A program made the position numbers and the translations under genes. From a virus, in IMG/VR virus record IMGVR_UViG_3300027608_000098, positions 1 to 31,372 of that record: a DNA stretch of 31,372 nt, one strand, 5' to 3'. This document shows, piece by piece, positions 25,754 to 31,372 of this stretch (positions within the stretch are counted from its first letter, which is position 1; each line of letters opens with the position of its first letter). A model generated the notes under the pieces. It saw only the letters and a list, made by a program, of their open reading frames with translations. It was not told the origin of the DNA and ran no database searches.

Positions 25754-26101
25754 TTAGCTCATGTTGGGGAAGCGAGTCGCGGAAACGTCCACCGTGACGA
25801 ACCCGTCAGAGGCGCGGTTTACAGTCACGCTATCCACAATAATTTTTCCGCCAGTGCTGGCAGCGTTTGCCAAGGTTGTGATGACTGCTCCGGCCGTAGT
25901 GGCGTAGGAGCCTGTGATGGTGGTAGAAAAGGCAAAGGTATCGGTAGGGTTGTACATGGCAGCACCGACTACTTCGCCGCTTTGGTTTCTAACTTCCGCA
26001 CGTTCGACATTCCGGGTTTCTGTGAAAGATTGTACGAGGCCACCCGTTTCAGCAGTGATGCCAAACTGAAGGCCAGAAGTTCCGATTGTTGTGGCTGCCA
26101 T
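25754..26101 (-). CDS. Major tail tube protein candidate
   Basis: 115 residues, all-beta, beginning MAATTIGTSGLQFGITAETG and continuing with LVQSFTETRNVERAEVRNQS and GEVVGAAMYNPTDTFAFSTT. The pattern (TIG.. G...G, RxxERAEVRNQxGEVVG, strand pairs, D-x-F-x-F) resembles short tail-tube or tube-related proteins. A strong hairpin follows directly, as expected for an abundant protein. Next upstream is the tail terminator. The size is small for a full tube protein (often 150-250), so a tube-like or neck protein is an alternative. Confidence 0.6.
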   Translation of the reverse strand: MAATTIGTSGLQFGITAETGGLVQSFTETRNVERAEVRNQSGEVVGAAMYNPTDTFAFSTTITGSYATTAGAVITTLANAASTGGKIIVDSVTVNRASDGFVTVDVSATRFPNMS

Positions 26102-26119: not shown

Positions 26120-26566
26120 TCAACTCGCGATCGAATTGGGATATGCGATAACTGCCAGCCTGTAGGTGCGACGCATTGTACGCTCCTCATCGTCAGCCTC
26201 TGCTTCGCTTGACTCCACCTTTGCATTGAAACAGCGAGCAGATCCGATGGCCGTAGTGGCATTTAGACGATTTGCCAGCGGGCTGGAATCATAGAACGCC
26301 TGCAAGATCTTGGAACATTTTTGAGTGTGAGCGTCCACGGTTGTGTCGTCATAAGAATCATCGACAACGATTTCAACTGGAACGCTGAACACGCCAGACC
26401 CCTGAACGGGCTCTTCGGTTCCTAACGTCGCTTTAATGACGATCGAGGGCAGCATGTTCTCCGTCTTATCGTGGGACAAGTGATAGGTCACCCCGGTAAC
26501 GGTTGCAGATAGAAGCTCTTGAAACGCAGCTTCAATTAGACGATCGAGCATGGTGACGGCGGGCAT
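26120..26566 (-). CDS. Tail terminator/completion-like protein
   Basis: 148 residues. N-terminal helix (PAVTMLDRLIEAAFQELLSA), then a strand-rich mid part (TYHLSHDKTENMLPSIVIKA; GVFSVPVEIVVDDSYDDTTV), then a C-terminal strand pair (ERTMRRTYRLAVIAYPNS). This alpha-plus-beta layout fits minor tail proteins that terminate the tube (gpU-type). It has AGGAG 10 bases before ATG 26566. It is the first clearly tail-related gene after the metabolic cassette and precedes the tube gene. Function is assigned by order and fold impression. Confidence 0.6.
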   Translation of the reverse strand: MPAVTMLDRLIEAAFQELLSATVTGVTYHLSHDKTENMLPSIVIKATLGTEEPVQGSGVFSVPVEIVVDDSYDDTTVDAHTQKCSKILQAFYDSSPLANRLNATTAIGSARCFNAKVESSEAEADDEERTMRRTYRLAVIAYPNSIAS

Positions 26567-26583: not shown

Positions 26584-27198
26584 TCACCAGATCGGGCGAA
26601 TGGACGGATCAAATGTGACCATGGTTTTACATCCAGCGCCACCATGCGGAAAGGTTGGGGTGTAGTGGTATCGCTTGACGCAATCAGGCCAAGTCATCGT
26701 GGCCTTTCCCCTGGCTGCCTTTGGCGTATCCACGGATCGATCGTTATCCTCGACAATAAAGGTGCAGGGTAGATCTGCCCCAGCCACATAGTTCACGGCC
26801 TCATAAAAATGGCCCTCGTCCTCAGCTCCATCGCCCAAGAAGCACCACACCTTTGCCGAGCTTCCCTGCTCTTTTAATGTGTGCGCCACTCCGGCCGCTA
26901 TCCCGCAAGTGCCAGCCAACACGCTTGACGTATAGAAATTGAGCTTACGGTCAAAGACAAACATGGAGCGACCATCTCTAATCATCTGCTCAAGCACGTC
27001 AGGATCTCCGCCAGAGAGCAGATAGTGATAGTGGGATCTGTGGCTTGAGAAGATCCAATCGCCTGGCTTGATGTCTTTGAATATCTCGATGAGCTGATCC
27101 TCGTTTCCACCGCATAGGTGAATCAGATATGGCAGCTTGCCCTGCTCAAATAGCGCCTTAATGCGCAGTTCAAAATCAATCAGATCCTGCTTGTTCAT
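26584..27198 (-). CDS. Shortened thiamine-diphosphate-dependent E1-alpha-like subunit
   Basis: 204 residues. Resembles 2-oxoacid dehydrogenase E1 alpha: WIFSSHRSHYHYLLSGGDPD (about 48-67), then TSSVLAGTCGIAAGVAHTLK, then the TPP-binding motif GDGAEDEGHFYEAVNYVAG (G122-D123-G124) with EDND (N152) 28 residues later. Full E1 alpha chains are about 320-370 aa; this ends soon after the TPP site and lacks the C-terminal phosphorylation-loop/helix region. The partner shortened E1-beta lies two genes upstream with the radical SAM gene between. Together they could decarboxylate or transfer a two-carbon unit in sugar or oxoacid chemistry; substrate unknown. Confidence 0.85.
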   Translation of the reverse strand: MNKQDLIDFELRIKALFEQGKLPYLIHLCGGNEDQLIEIFKDIKPGDWIFSSHRSHYHYLLSGGDPDVLEQMIRDGRSMFVFDRKLNFYTSSVLAGTCGIAAGVAHTLKEQGSSAKVWCFLGDGAEDEGHFYEAVNYVAGADLPCTFIVEDNDRSVDTPKAARGKATMTWPDCVKRYHYTPTFPHGGAGCKTMVTFDPSIRPIW

Positions 27199-28289
27199 AC
27201 AAAGGCATCGTGACTATCGGTGGCCAGCTTTTCAAATAGTGCCACCTTGCCGTGATTTGCGCATTCATGCAGGCAACTGACGCCAGGGTTAAAGTTTTTA
27301 TGCCATGCTCTCGCCTCTTCTCCGAACCATGCTTGGCTAAATGATTGATCCTTCATGGAGGCGATGCGGCCGTGATTGCTGTATGCGGTATTGTGGCATG
27401 CGTAGATATTAAGATCCGCGCCTACCACGCAAACGGCCTGAGCGTAAAGACAGCGATGGAATGGCCGAACGGGCGACTTACTTGGGCTATCCAGATCATA
27501 GGTCGTGTTGATGGTAAAATCTGAATCACAAAAGGATTGGCATTCGGCCAGTTGCTCCCGCACCCTGGTTGCAATCGTGTTGTGATATTCTTTAAAGTTC
27601 TGCACGTAAACGGGCGAGAAGCGGACATTACTTACGCCTGAATCCTTGAGCTGTTTAGCGAACGGAACTAGTCCCTCGTAATTGTAGCGGGTAATAATAA
27701 AGTTAATCCCAAGGTCGCAGCTCTCTGTTTTCGTGTTGGAAAAGTTTTTTATATTCTGCATCACGGAATCAAACGATCTGTCAGGCACATTACGGCTAGA
27801 TGCCATCTGCTCTGCGCTTGTGTAGTCCATGGAAATCCTCACCCACTTTGCCTTGCCCAATACTTCTGCCCTTTCCCCCGCAAGTAGTTGGCCGTTGGTA
27901 ATAATGGATAGATCCAACCCAGACGAAACTGTCTTAGTCATAATCTCGACAATGTCTTTATGCAGCAAAGGCTCTCCGCCACCGCTGAAGGTGACGGCCT
28001 TTGTTCCTATGTTTGAAAGATCCTCTATTAGTTCTAGTGCCTTATCTCGTGGCATCACGTCCCTCTCGTTCATGCTGGTGTGCATGCCAGCCTGCAGGTG
28101 CAAGTCAGGCCGATCCTTTGGCCGAGTTGTGCCGTCAGAATAGACGCAGAAACGGCAGGCGTGGTTACAGATATTCGTCGGCTTAATCCGCACGTATATG
28201 GGTGCGGTGATAATATCGTCGCGAAAGCTGGCGATCTTATCCGGGAACGAAAAGATTTTAAGATCACTGTACTTGTTCTGTTTCACCAT
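27195..28289 (-). CDS. Radical SAM protein with SPASM-like C-terminus
   Basis: 364 residues. Radical SAM motif CNHACRFC (C41, C45, C48) binds the [4Fe-4S] cluster that splits S-adenosylmethionine. GGGEPLL (about 105) is the usual SAM-binding motif, followed by the TIM-barrel pattern (KWVRISMDYT; INFIITRYNYEGLVPFAKQL). C-terminal cysteines (RCLYAQAVC; NIYACHN; SCLHECANHGK) can bind one or more auxiliary Fe-S clusters (SPASM or twitch type). It sits between the two TPP subunits, overlapping E1-alpha by 4 bases and E1-beta by 7. It may epimerise, dehydrogenate or modify a sugar, peptide or nucleotide; the substrate is not evident. Confidence 0.93.
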   Translation of the reverse strand: MVKQNKYSDLKIFSFPDKIASFRDDIITAPIYVRIKPTNICNHACRFCVYSDGTTRPKDRPDLHLQAGMHTSMNERDVMPRDKALELIEDLSNIGTKAVTFSGGGEPLLHKDIVEIMTKTVSSGLDLSIITNGQLLAGERAEVLGKAKWVRISMDYTSAEQMASSRNVPDRSFDSVMQNIKNFSNTKTESCDLGINFIITRYNYEGLVPFAKQLKDSGVSNVRFSPVYVQNFKEYHNTIATRVREQLAECQSFCDSDFTINTTYDLDSPSKSPVRPFHRCLYAQAVCVVGADLNIYACHNTAYSNHGRIASMKDQSFSQAWFGEEARAWHKNFNPGVSCLHECANHGKVALFEKLATDSHDAFV

Positions 28290-28801
28290 TCATCCTTTCG
28301 CTCGACCAGCATGGTGGATGTCCCAGCGATCAGCCTTTGCAATGCGTTTTGATATTCGCTCACTACGCTCTCCTTCTTTAGTTCGACGATTGGGAAATCG
28401 ATCATCTTCCTAAGAGCTTCGGTGAAGTCCTGCGTATGGGTTGGCCCCGTGTAGAGCGGTTTGCTTTTATTGCCTATGACTACCCGCAAGATGGCGGCAG
28501 GCTTGAATTGATTGCAGCTAATATGCTGGGCTGCGCCCAGGTGATTCACGATGGCGTCCAGTGCGTTGAGAATAAAATCCATCCGCTCAATAAAGACGAC
28601 GGGCTTCAGCCCGGCTAAACTCAGGCCCGTGGCTAGTCCTACCATCAGATTTTCAGCGACAGGCGTTTCAATCAGTTGTGAATCCGAAACATTATTGAGC
28701 GTGCCTGCCGCCCGGCCGCCTATCTTTACCCCGTAGCCTATAAACCTGACGGCCGGATCGGCCGCCAATAAATCCATCGCCTGAGTCAGCTCCTTCTTCA
28801 C
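28283..28801 (-). CDS. Shortened E1-beta-like (transketolase pyrimidine-binding) subunit
   Basis: 172 residues with the pyrimidine-binding domain of E1 beta/transketolase: IETPVAENLMVGLATGLSLA has the catalytic Glu (E50) that activates the TPP aminopyrimidine, followed by GLKPVVFIERMDFILNALDA and AIVNHLGAA. The C-terminal domain present in full E1 beta chains (about 320-340 aa) is absent. GTG start at 28801 overlaps the GT9-like gene stop by 4 bases. The alpha-like subunit would supply the diphosphate site, so an active alpha-beta dimer is feasible. Confidence 0.85.
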   Translation of the reverse strand: MKKELTQAMDLLAADPAVRFIGYGVKIGGRAAGTLNNVSDSQLIETPVAENLMVGLATGLSLAGLKPVVFIERMDFILNALDAIVNHLGAAQHISCNQFKPAAILRVVIGNKSKPLYTGPTHTQDFTEALRKMIDFPIVELKKESVVSEYQNALQRLIAGTSTMLVERKDEW

Positions 28802-29562
28802 AGTAAGCCTTCTTCTTCAAGAATGTGCAGGGCGTGAAATGCGCTCCTAGCCATCTGGCCGCGTTCGGTAAATATGACTGTCTCGGTATCTGCACACAGC
28901 AAGTGGAAGGCGTTTTTGTTGTGAACGTTTAGGCACGGCCAGCTCGGCCCGGTGGATGTTCCGATGACGGCTTTAGCCTTTGCAGCCGTCGCCCCTATCC
29001 AAGTCACATTCTTGCCATCAAATGCCGGGCATAATCCAGTATCGACTGTGCTGATTACCCGATGGCCCTTGCTAACTAGTTTAGATACTAGGTTGCGAAA
29101 ATCGTCGGGGTTAAAGTTTGTAAATTGACCAGACAGCCCTGGCGAATTTATCACGACAATATCGCAGTCTGGCGCCATCGGAATAAAGGAATCTAGGGCT
29201 GGATAGTCAAAAAGGAGGTCATCGACTTTCCGGATCGGATTCTTTACGCACATCCTGCTGGCCAGTTCCTCGAACCAACATAGATGAAATTTGGCGAAGT
29301 TTAATTTGTCGGGATGACGCTCCCAATATCCGCCTGCATTACGCCAAGAATCAATACTATCGGCTGGCGCCTCGCTGATTGGTCGAATGCGTAGCCGTAA
29401 AGACATGTCGCTCCGCAAGGCATCAATCTCCTCAAACTTGCACAGCTCTGGATTGTGATAGTGCGTGATCTCAATATCTGGATTTTGCAGGCATAGCCTA
29501 CGTAGAAAGTTTAACTGCACCAGGTTGTCGCCCAAACGCAGTGCGTTGTGGGTGTGAATCAC
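28798..29562 (-). CDS. GT9-like (heptosyltransferase-type) glycosyltransferase
   Basis: 254 residues. THNALRLGDNLVQLNFLRRL (residues 4-23) is similar to the start of heptosyltransferase-type GT-B enzymes. Then CDIVVINSPGLSGQFTNFNP (133-152), and TAAKAKAVIGTSTGPSWPCL (192-211) matches the GT9 C-terminal donor-binding signature (xGxDTGPSHLA-like). It is shorter than typical heptosyltransferases (about 320-350). GTG at 29562 overlaps the GT2 gene stop by 4 bases. A glycosyl donor made or altered by neighbours would be transferred to an unknown acceptor. Confidence 0.75.
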   Translation of the reverse strand: MIHTHNALRLGDNLVQLNFLRRLCLQNPDIEITHYHNPELCKFEEIDALRSDMSLRLRIRPISEAPADSIDSWRNAGGYWERHPDKLNFAKFHLCWFEELASRMCVKNPIRKVDDLLFDYPALDSFIPMAPDCDIVVINSPGLSGQFTNFNPDDFRNLVSKLVSKGHRVISTVDTGLCPAFDGKNVTWIGATAAKAKAVIGTSTGPSWPCLNVHNKNAFHLLCADTETVIFTERGQMARSAFHALHILEEEGLL

Positions 29563-31244
29563 GGATTCCGCTCCTTGAATATCTTTTCGCCAAGCTCGTA
29601 GTTCTCCTTGGCGTTGTGGCGTTTAAATTCCGCATCCTGCGCCGCGCCGGTGAAGAGCGGATTATTGTGAGTGAATACGATATCCTTAGCGGGAATGATC
29701 ACACCGTCGTATGCGGCTCTTTTAGAAAATTCGTTATCCGAGAATATGCCGGAGCAAGCGTCATATTCGGCGGCAAACATTGCGCCTTGATCTTGCAGTC
29801 GTGCTTTTGTGAGGATTGCCATGCACAACAGATCGTCTTTGCGGTGGCCGTCGGAAATCGCCAGTACCTTGGGCTTGCTGGTATCGCCAATCCTGTCGCT
29901 GATTATCTTGTCCCAATGTAGCGGAGGGTCCCAATCGTCGGAGCCTTGAATGATAATTTCACCACGGGCTACTTCGGCCGCCCTGTTCCAAGCAGCAATA
30001 CATCCGCCCTTACCTTTAACGATTCCCCAATTTTTCAGCATGTCCGCTTTTGGGTCGTCATCGTCGACTGAGTAGATCCACTCGACTGACGCTGGATCTG
30101 CCGCCTTTTTCATCCACAAGATGCGGGCGTTGATCGCTTCCTGTGGGCGGCCTCGGGTGGCGTGGCAAACGGTAATCTTTACGGGCTTCTGCGCCCGCCA
30201 CATGTTCTCAATCTTTTCTGCCTCGGCCGTATCGCCCACGGCTTTGCAGGCCGCGAGGTATAGATCAATGCACTCAAAGTCGTACACGGTGCGCTGGGCG
30301 TTCCAGATCTTTACGCCCGGATCGGGCTGAACCATTGCCGATTTTAGCAAGTGATAAGCCTGCAACCAGGCACCCACGCTGGCCTCTTCCCTGGCTAAAT
30401 AGTAAATCGCTTCCCTGCGCCCAGGGTTCATCTGATGTGCCTTTTGGTATAAACCAATTCTGACCGTGCGATCTTGCGTAGCTGTCGCTTGATTGCAGGC
30501 AGCCTCGTAAGCCAGCGTGGCCTCTTGCCCCGGCCAGATGGCCGCAACGTGTGACCACGGTTCTGATTCTGTCCTGCGATTACCTAGGAAAAGTTCCTGC
30601 TGGTAGTAGTACGCATACTTGCCTGCCTCGCTTAACTGACCCTGAAGAATGCGCAGATTCCGATCGGCGCTACCCGCCTTGTAACCACCGGGGTGATGCT
30701 CCACCCATACCGTCTGCTCGCCCACAGATTCCAGCCCAGCATTAGGCAACAGCGCCTCATGTACGGCATAGTTCCACCTGCCAGACCATACGCCATCTAT
30801 ACGCCGCACCATGCGCTCACGTACTGGCCTTAATTTGGCGTTTATAACGTCATAGACGCCTGCATAGATGCCGAGCTTGGGATTCTGCTCAAACGCTTCC
30901 ACGCCCCTTTTAAGAGCGTTTTTAAGGTCTTTATGTGGCAAGTCATCGCAATCCACCCATACCGCATAGTCGCCAGTACAGGCATCCAATGCGGTATTGC
31001 GGGCGGCGGCAAAGTTGTCGACGTGGGGCCAGCTCGCCCCTGCCGGTGCGTTTTTATATTCAACTATCTTAGCGCCTGACTTTTCGGCAATCGCCCGCGT
31101 GCCATCGTCAGGCCGAGCGCCCTGGGCCATGCAAATTACCAGCTCATCGCAGTATGGTAAAAATGCAGTTACAAAGCGCTGCATGAATTGCGCCTCGTGC
31201 CCGGCGATTGCGTAAATGGAGATTTTAGGATTTCGAGTGGCCAC
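29559..31244 (-). CDS. Two-domain GT2-type glycosyltransferase with helical-repeat linker
   Basis: 561 residues. Domain 1 (1-200) is a GT2-type GT-A: ISIYAIAGHEAQFMQRFVTA, HVDNFAAARNTALDACTGDY and WVDCDDLPH (D98, D100, D101, the DxD metal site). Residues about 205-350 look like TPR-type helices (YEAACNQATATQDRTVRIGL; AWLQAYHLLKSAMVQPDPGV). Domain 2 (about 353-561) resembles a second GT-A-type unit: ITVCHATRGRPQEAINARIL, WIYSVDDDDPKADML and IIQGSDDWDPPLHWDKIIS. Start GTG at 31244, 2 bases after the upstream gene stop. It may add two sugars, or one domain may be non-catalytic. Confidence 0.85.
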   Translation of the reverse strand: MATRNPKISIYAIAGHEAQFMQRFVTAFLPYCDELVICMAQGARPDDGTRAIAEKSGAKIVEYKNAPAGASWPHVDNFAAARNTALDACTGDYAVWVDCDDLPHKDLKNALKRGVEAFEQNPKLGIYAGVYDVINAKLRPVRERMVRRIDGVWSGRWNYAVHEALLPNAGLESVGEQTVWVEHHPGGYKAGSADRNLRILQGQLSEAGKYAYYYQQELFLGNRRTESEPWSHVAAIWPGQEATLAYEAACNQATATQDRTVRIGLYQKAHQMNPGRREAIYYLAREEASVGAWLQAYHLLKSAMVQPDPGVKIWNAQRTVYDFECIDLYLAACKAVGDTAEAEKIENMWRAQKPVKITVCHATRGRPQEAINARILWMKKAADPASVEWIYSVDDDDPKADMLKNWGIVKGKGGCIAAWNRAAEVARGEIIIQGSDDWDPPLHWDKIISDRIGDTSKPKVLAISDGHRKDDLLCMAILTKARLQDQGAMFAAEYDACSGIFSDNEFSKRAAYDGVIIPAKDIVFTHNNPLFTGAAQDAEFKRHNAKENYELGEKIFKERNP

Positions 31245-31246
31245 GG

Positions 31247-31372
31247 TTAAATCTCTCGCAAACCGAGCACGTAACTACCGATAGAAGTATCAATCGACGC
31301 CACCCGATAGCTAACCGAGTTAGCCAGCAAGATAGATCCGATTGTGGGAGCTGTGGCTAAGTTCGCCACGTC
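31247..31372 (-). CDS. Head-tail joining protein fragment (5' part outside window)
   Basis: Last 41 residues of a gene whose start lies beyond the right edge (DVANLATAPTIGSILLANSV, then SYRVASIDTSIGSYVLGLRE). The strand pattern (a NSVSYRVASID hairpin followed by GSYVLGLRE) is of the type ending head-completion/head-tail joining proteins of lambda FII-like or similar families. It ends 2 bases before the GT2 start. Assignment is by pattern and by position just before tail genes. Confidence 0.55.
   Translation of the reverse strand, partial: DVANLATAPTIGSILLANSVSYRVASIDTSIGSYVLGLREI

Follow-up and report, generated by a model that had tools for sequence, protein, structure and literature searches.

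The window analysed here is the whole of the linear IMG/VR record IMGVR_UViG_3300027608_000098 (31,372 bases). On its minus strand lies a cassette of five open reading frames (ORFs) encoding, in transcription order, a glycosyltransferase of family GT2, a GT9-like protein (G9), the pyrimidine-binding (Pyr) subunit of a putative thiamine diphosphate (TPP)-dependent enzyme, a radical S-adenosylmethionine (SAM) enzyme (rSAM in gene orders) and the diphosphate-binding (PP) subunit. Successive genes overlap by 4, 4, 7 and 4 bases. A first-pass annotation of this DNA had described five overlapping genes between head and tail genes, with motifs suggesting functional enzymes that act together; all the ORFs and overlaps are confirmed here, and the catalytic motifs are conserved. 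On balance, the cassette seems to us to encode a short sugar-remodelling pathway in the late operon of a family of freshwater phages.

The same five genes are found in the same order in dozens of related contigs. All five are under strong purifying selection, with ratios of non-synonymous to synonymous substitution (dN/dS) of 0.02-0.11 (pairs without saturated dS), values similar to or lower than those of the adjoining structural genes. An assembly artefact or gene decay can be rejected on these ratios and on motifs that remain intact across dozens of contigs. So can an oddity of a single contig, since the gene set recurs widely, in many phages and in at least four arrangements.

Scans of viral contigs for the TPP enzyme gave more than 100 loci, which clustered at 85% PP-subunit identity into 40 lineages (loci from cellular genome records included). 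In the window, the PP subunit (26584..27198, minus strand; 204 residues) matches Pfam E1_dh (4e-17; profile positions 6-174 of 300) and the Pyr subunit (28283..28801, minus strand; 172 residues) matches Transket_pyr (3e-7), with no Transketolase_C match for the latter in the Pfam search. Motif conservation and alignment place a GDG...EDN TPP/Mg-binding motif in the PP subunit (26743..26835, minus strand), its GDG being kept in 104 of 105 distinct relatives. The ETPVAE motif of the Pyr subunit (28652..28669, minus strand) aligns with E1-beta structures and is kept as ETP[VLI]AE in 95 of 109 distinct relatives; the glutamate of this motif activates TPP in E1-beta and transketolase enzymes. The PP and Pyr subunits match the first half (242 bits) and the second half, respectively, of PHROG 34187, a single 405-residue phage family whose function is not annotated, and they are fused as one chain in 18 of the 40 lineages, which the tree traces to one fusion event. 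With an AlphaFold 2 (AF2) model of a fused homologue (L058; predicted local distance difference test (pLDDT) score 86), Foldseek retrieves transketolase (1e-12), DXS (2.5e-12) and E1-beta (2e-11). PP and Pyr are almost certainly two halves of one minimal TPP enzyme, and the GDG...N motif, the catalytic glutamate and the modelled fold all place the pair in the transketolase/E1/DXS superfamily.

The best named profile matches of both subunits are E1 subunits of pyruvate dehydrogenase (PDH), which would suit a role in auxiliary central metabolism, a phage PDH E1 redirecting host carbon independently of the glycosyltransferases. Against this, the scores are 42-84 where the curated cut-offs are 321-454, both proteins are far shorter than PDH E1, the C-terminal domain is lacking, and E2 or E3 partners were recognised neither among the genes examined in the window (a subset of its ORFs) nor in the cassettes of relatives. 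The genes to which the pair is linked are, moreover, those of the radical SAM protein, a zinc alcohol dehydrogenase (Zn-ADH) or sugar enzymes. We therefore reject PDH-like carbon diversion as extremely improbable; the minimal enzyme probably acts like transketolase rather than PDH. The labels 'E1-alpha-like' and 'E1-beta-like' originally given to the two genes hold as far as their E1_dh and Transket_pyr matches, and do not extend to a full PDH E1.

The radical SAM gene (27195..28289, minus strand; 364 residues) lies between those of the two subunits. Its product has a twitch-like C-terminal domain and matches Pfam Radical_SAM at 3e-19; it had been called radical SAM-SPASM-like, of which the first part stands and the second has a weak match (0.019). 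A CX3CX2C motif for the [4Fe-4S] cluster and SAM (C41, C45 and C48; 28146..28169, minus strand) is invariant in the alignment and present in 75 of 76 distinct relatives, and a GGGEP motif is kept in all 76. Four further invariant cysteines, C280-X17-C298-X40-C339-X3-C343 (27261..27452, minus strand), form a pattern present in 74 of the 76 and are the expected ligands of one predicted auxiliary cluster. The AF2 model (pLDDT 78, predicted template modelling (pTM) score 0.82) has a C-terminal end of low confidence. With its CX3CX2C and GGE motifs and a TIM-type barrel in the model, the protein is assigned to the radical SAM superfamily.

Its closest folds are DesII, SuiB and BlsE, and its structural-alignment identity to SPASM/twitch enzymes, DesII and BlsE is 13-19%. 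DesII and BlsE act on nucleotide- or nucleoside-linked sugars (PMC3715490). BtrN, a radical SAM dehydrogenase, carries out two-electron oxidation of an alcohol and has an auxiliary cluster with four cysteine ligands (PMC9012708). Membership of the BtrN type is a partial fit only: the four cysteines agree, but BtrN is found at rank 45 and the cysteine region of the model is of low confidence. The fold does not settle the radical SAM reaction, because BtrN ranks below DesII, SuiB and BlsE. One radical SAM homologue (L256:5142-7265, plus strand) is split by an intein of about 340 residues (CLVAGTRV...VVHN/C) exactly at the third cysteine of CX3CX2C; inteins are often located at conserved active sites.

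The GT2 gene (29559..31244, minus strand) encodes 561 residues. The N-terminal domain matches Pfam Glycos_transf_2 (4.9e-11), residues 6-343 correspond to PHROG 13126 and residues 356-556 to PHROG 14945, which supports the second domain suspected at first pass, and there is a weak PDB match to GmaR (E = 0.0025). Given the Glycos_transf_2 domain and a DxD-type motif, we class the protein as a GT2 glycosyltransferase. The family of G9 (28798..29562, minus strand; 254 residues) is unconfirmed: the protein and 14 homologues gave no match in Pfam, NCBIfam and PDB profile searches and hhalign was negative, so that its earlier designation as GT9-like goes unsupported, save for the hint provided by an N-terminal LGDN...FLR motif. 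The gene nonetheless accompanies the TPP pair in a number of phage lineages, in the orders G9-Pyr-rSAM-PP, G9-Pyr-[Zn-ADH]-PP and PP-G9-Pyr-rSAM.

Across the lineages, the order of the window and its allies, GT2-G9-Pyr-rSAM-PP, is joined by PP-Pyr-rSAM, by PP-G9-Pyr-rSAM, by the fused PP-Pyr form and, in huge phages of 470 and 735 kb, by Pyr-rSAM-PP. In the huge-phage loci L002 and L263, two genes of a C-methyltransferase family (Methyltransf_14) flank Pyr-rSAM-PP, one on each side. A scan of 84,980 cellular genomes gave at least 80 loci. Five among the listed matches are true members, all on contigs of 6-23 kb from metagenome-assembled genomes (MAGs) or single-cell genomes, and these contigs may be viral; the other listed loci, where checked, were mostly AceE-type enzymes. 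Some 1,490 sampled genomes yielded no further close member; the cousins in them were more distant, scoring 170-181 bits or, in a few cases, about 100 bits. Among the matches listed, members of the TPP family are frequent in phages and scarce in cells, and on these matches we set aside a bacterial source of the family. L138, L135 and L134, three short contigs from archaeal or bacterial MAGs, combine the TPP pair with diverged radical SAM genes (one or two each); they may be of viral origin and binned with cellular sequence. A cellular cousin of the PP subunit (L308/L309; genome G553, 646200-646802) has GEM instead of GDG, and its Mg/TPP site may be different or altered.

The partner of the TPP enzyme is of two kinds. 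In 24 of the 40 lineages a Zn-ADH gene lies beside it and in 12 a radical SAM gene; the two never occur together, and four lineages lack both (Fisher p = 3e-7, in a test that treats lineages as independent although there is some kinship among them; the tree needs at least four switches, with modest branch support). Three of the four exceptions are the contigs with diverged radical SAM genes (L134, L135 and L138) and the fourth, L084, is cut by its contig end. Zn-ADH occupies precisely the position of the window's radical SAM gene in L258, L268 and L269, where the order is GT2-G9-Pyr-[Zn-ADH]-PP; the major head protein of L258 and L268 is of a different family, PHROG 1005. Most fused cassettes with Zn-ADH have an adjoining short-chain dehydrogenase/reductase (SDR) gene. 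It is mainly because Zn-ADH replaces the radical SAM gene that alcohol oxidation is proposed for the latter: where sister cassettes use Zn-ADH to oxidise an alcohol, that of the window most likely uses the radical SAM protein, which we consider reasonably likely to be an alcohol oxidase. Zn-ADH and radical SAM enzymes presumably stand in the same relation in 2-deoxystreptamine synthesis (NeoA/KanK versus BtrN), a parallel of which papers confirmed the BtrN half.

The second swap concerns the TPP pair itself. We compared, in the window's phage family, 78 complete stretches between the GT2 gene, which forms the constant upstream border of them all, and a structural gene of 148 residues (26120..26566, minus strand), putatively for tail completion, which adjoins the slot in 78 relatives and is the right border of the exchange site. 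The slot reads G9-Pyr-rSAM-PP in 46 of the 78, a count that includes three in which a simple ORF caller missed Pyr or PP (two of high GC) and tblastn found the genes. Four others (L360, L371, L384 and L395) read G9-[Transketolase_N, 213 residues]-[Transket_pyr, 151 residues]-[methyltransferase]-rSAM. In these, PP and Pyr have disappeared together in spite of the intervening radical SAM gene, while the radical SAM protein (95-98% amino acid identity) and G9 stay; at the nucleotide level, G9 and rSAM are 90-92% identical to those of an E1-type relative, L378. Two-carbon transfer is proposed for the TPP enzyme mainly because a minimal split transketolase replaces the pair, and we regard a non-oxidative transfer of this sort as likely.

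The remaining 28 of the 78 slots contain methyltransferase, GT47, nucleotide-sugar-transferase-like or DUF5672 genes, and most of the 28 also encode a second protein with the LGD motif. About eight alternative glycan-type modules occupy the slot in the relatives L359-L425, exchanged at gene borders between near-identical genomes. L359 and the window's twin contig, L358, for example, are 92-98% identical in both flanks and entirely different in slot content. Wholly different content between near-identical flanks marks the slot as a site of cassette exchange at gene borders. One slot (L379:2442-4292, plus strand) encodes a 616-residue protein that has both a GT47 exostosin domain and a region matching radical SAM weakly (8e-4). 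An LGD-motif family of about 221 residues without a Pfam match, m4 (L361:6333-6998 and 24 relatives), is typical of the methyltransferase-type modules and is perhaps a second unrecognised GT-B family.

Cellular genomes contain comparable gene sets, in which neighbours were named by sequence reading unless backed by Pfam. Of 249 genomes sampled from one phylum, 30 encode radical SAM orthologues (336-362 bits). In at least eight of 11 such loci, both subunits of a split transketolase (N-terminal and C-terminal) are encoded within the same 14 kb, as a rule together with a methyltransferase of 220 residues, and three of the 11 neighbourhoods include an HldE-like kinase/cytidylyltransferase. An orthologue of this methyltransferase (264 bits) belongs to a cyanobacterial operon that also encodes an E1-like TPP enzyme, a Zn-ADH scoring 413 bits against the phage profile, an HldE-like kinase, a GmhA-type isomerase with a SIS domain, a nucleotidyltransferase, epimerases and an SDR. 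Cellular loci with split transketolase or Zn-ADH therefore mirror both swaps, in apparent surface-glycan clusters. Minimal cellular cousins of PP and Pyr (about 200 and 178 residues) are clustered with genes for HddA-like kinases, nucleotidyltransferases and epimerases. Some of these clusters also include GmhA-like and DegT genes, and in one genome flagellin is encoded a few genes away; the clusters appear to be of nucleotide-heptose type.

Such neighbours invite the explanation that the cassette supplies heptose, the TPP enzyme being a dedicated transketolase that makes sedoheptulose-7-phosphate for GmhA and G9 a heptosyltransferase. GmhA-like, HldE/HddA-like kinase and nucleotidyltransferase genes do adjoin TPP genes in both cells and cyanophages, but hosts normally already produce sedoheptulose-7-phosphate, the radical SAM/Zn-ADH step would be left without a role and GT9 membership lacks profile support. 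We consider heptose supply improbable.

That the combination serves a glycan role, as first suggested from the DNA, is supported here. There is little doubt in our minds that the TPP enzyme and the radical SAM protein belong to the same pathway, and its substrate is very likely a sugar. In the proposed sugar-remodelling pathway, the radical SAM enzyme would oxidise a hydroxyl group on an activated sugar by two electrons, giving a ketone or aldehyde. The TPP enzyme would then move a two-carbon unit, either a ketol from a ketose or an acetyl from pyruvate, to or from this carbonyl, so that the sugar would be branched, lengthened or remodelled in some other way; at this step a split transketolase could stand in. 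Finally, G9 and the GT2 protein would transfer the product onto a protein or onto a glycan of the envelope. We infer the order of oxidation and carbon transfer.

The choice of two-carbon unit distinguishes a related scheme, in which a branched sugar is made in the style of yersiniose or avilamycin: radical SAM or Zn-ADH would produce a ketosugar, the TPP pair would add an acetyl branch derived from pyruvate, and a reductase would finish the hydroxyethyl branch. There are precedents in the two-component AviB1/AviB2 and Pau11/Pau12, for which acetyl branching at C4 with pyruvate as donor is proposed, and in the TPP-dependent YerE (PMC4753412). The similarity of PP and Pyr to PDH E1 and the SDR gene adjoining most fused Zn-ADH cassettes are in keeping with it. 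The window cassette, however, has no SDR, and the split transketolase found in the same slot and beside cellular radical SAM orthologues argues for ketol rather than acetyl transfer, so that we judge the acetyl-branching scheme unlikely.

Several points weigh against the sugar-remodelling pathway. Other folds lie nearer to the radical SAM protein than that of BtrN, and enzymes of such shape also perform epimerisation, decarboxylation and elimination; genes that swap position need not catalyse the same step. By sequence, PDH E1 is a closer relative of PP and Pyr than transketolase is, and pyruvate would fit that kinship as the donor; the GT9 identity is unsupported. There are no nucleotide-sugar synthesis genes in the window cassette, and the precursor must therefore come from the host. 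The virion as target is argued solely from gene position and cassette exchange.

As to that target, we find decoration of the virion somewhat likelier than that of the host envelope. The late position, the constant GT2 gene and the exchange of modules between near-identical phages are the reasons for proposing virion decoration, with selection for variety. Virion glycans of mycobacteriophages alter antibody recognition (Freeman et al. 2023, as cited in PMC10568470). Alternatively, the sugar could be added during infection to host lipopolysaccharide or another surface glycan, blocking superinfection or re-adsorption to debris. The cellular cousins occur in gene clusters for surface glycans or flagellin, the fused enzyme of cyanophages P-TIM68 and S-SM2 is encoded amid sugar-nucleotide, epimerase and capsule-type genes, and the module diversity at one locus would resemble that of serotype-converting loci. 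The position between head and tail genes, on the other hand, makes late expression probable, and neither an O-antigen polymerase nor a flippase nor a membrane-bound acyltransferase was seen in the window cassette. Modification of the host surface is thus conceivable, though we are inclined to doubt it. We would also venture, tentatively, a broader picture of a largely virus-borne pathway in which an oxygen-sensitive radical SAM oxidase swaps freely with Zn-ADH, and an E1-like with a transketolase-like enzyme, whose product decorates the virion and whose locus acts as a glycan 'serotype' switch recombining at gene borders.

The TPP family is already represented among annotated phage proteins by PHROG 34187 and by the 'transketolase central region-containing protein' of P-TIM68 and S-SM2, which covers both window subunits. 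In those cyanophages it is one fused chain beside Zn-ADH and sugar-nucleotide genes, whereas the window has two genes around a radical SAM gene. The avilamycin (AviB1/AviB2) and paulomycin (Pau11/Pau12) enzymes of branched octoses, and YerE, are TPP enzymes for which formation of carbon-carbon bonds on a ketosugar is proposed or shown; the window pair differs from them in consisting of minimal PP and Pyr subunits, in having a radical SAM partner and in being phage-borne. The likeness to AviB and Pau is drawn without sequence comparison, and YerE, unlike the window pair, is a single-chain flavoprotein. The split transketolase that replaces the pair in sister phages shares its superfamily and fold; the window pair lacks the C-terminal domain of transketolase and is closer to E1 in sequence. 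BtrN, anSME, PqqE, DesII and BlsE resemble the window enzyme in having a radical SAM core and a C-terminal domain for an auxiliary cluster, which in the window enzyme is predicted; BtrN has four cysteine ligands and oxidises an alcohol. Phage virions that bear glycans are known from mycobacteriophages, and the text read on them mentions neither a sugar rebuilt by the phage nor a module of radical SAM and TPP enzymes.

The literature searched, which included few subscription papers, yielded no description of a system that combines these genes, in agreement with the first-pass impression that nothing described matches them. Phage glycan modification as a kind is already known, and what appears to be new lies in the combination of chemistries, in two swaps that seem to be isofunctional and in the exchange slot. 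If the sugar-remodelling pathway is correct, phages carry sugar chemistry not described in the literature searched, and natural swaps show which enzyme does which step, making function testable by replacement. It would also give a probable role to the PHROG 34187 TPP family of cyanophages, huge phages and freshwater phages, and a glycan-module exchange locus in the late operon would let phage surface-sugar variation be compared with bacterial O-antigens.

The genes around the cassette bear out its placement within the late operon, as originally described, with tail genes from 26566 onwards. The 148-residue gene of the right border and the one after it (25754..26101, minus strand), a putative major tail protein gene by position and sequence character, gave no match in PHROG searches. 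The left border is the 3' end of a 99-residue gene (31247..31372, minus strand), which is cut by the contig end and matches in sequence a 99-residue ORF of the relative L228. There, as in complete relatives, that ORF follows the gene for a major head protein of PHROG 283.

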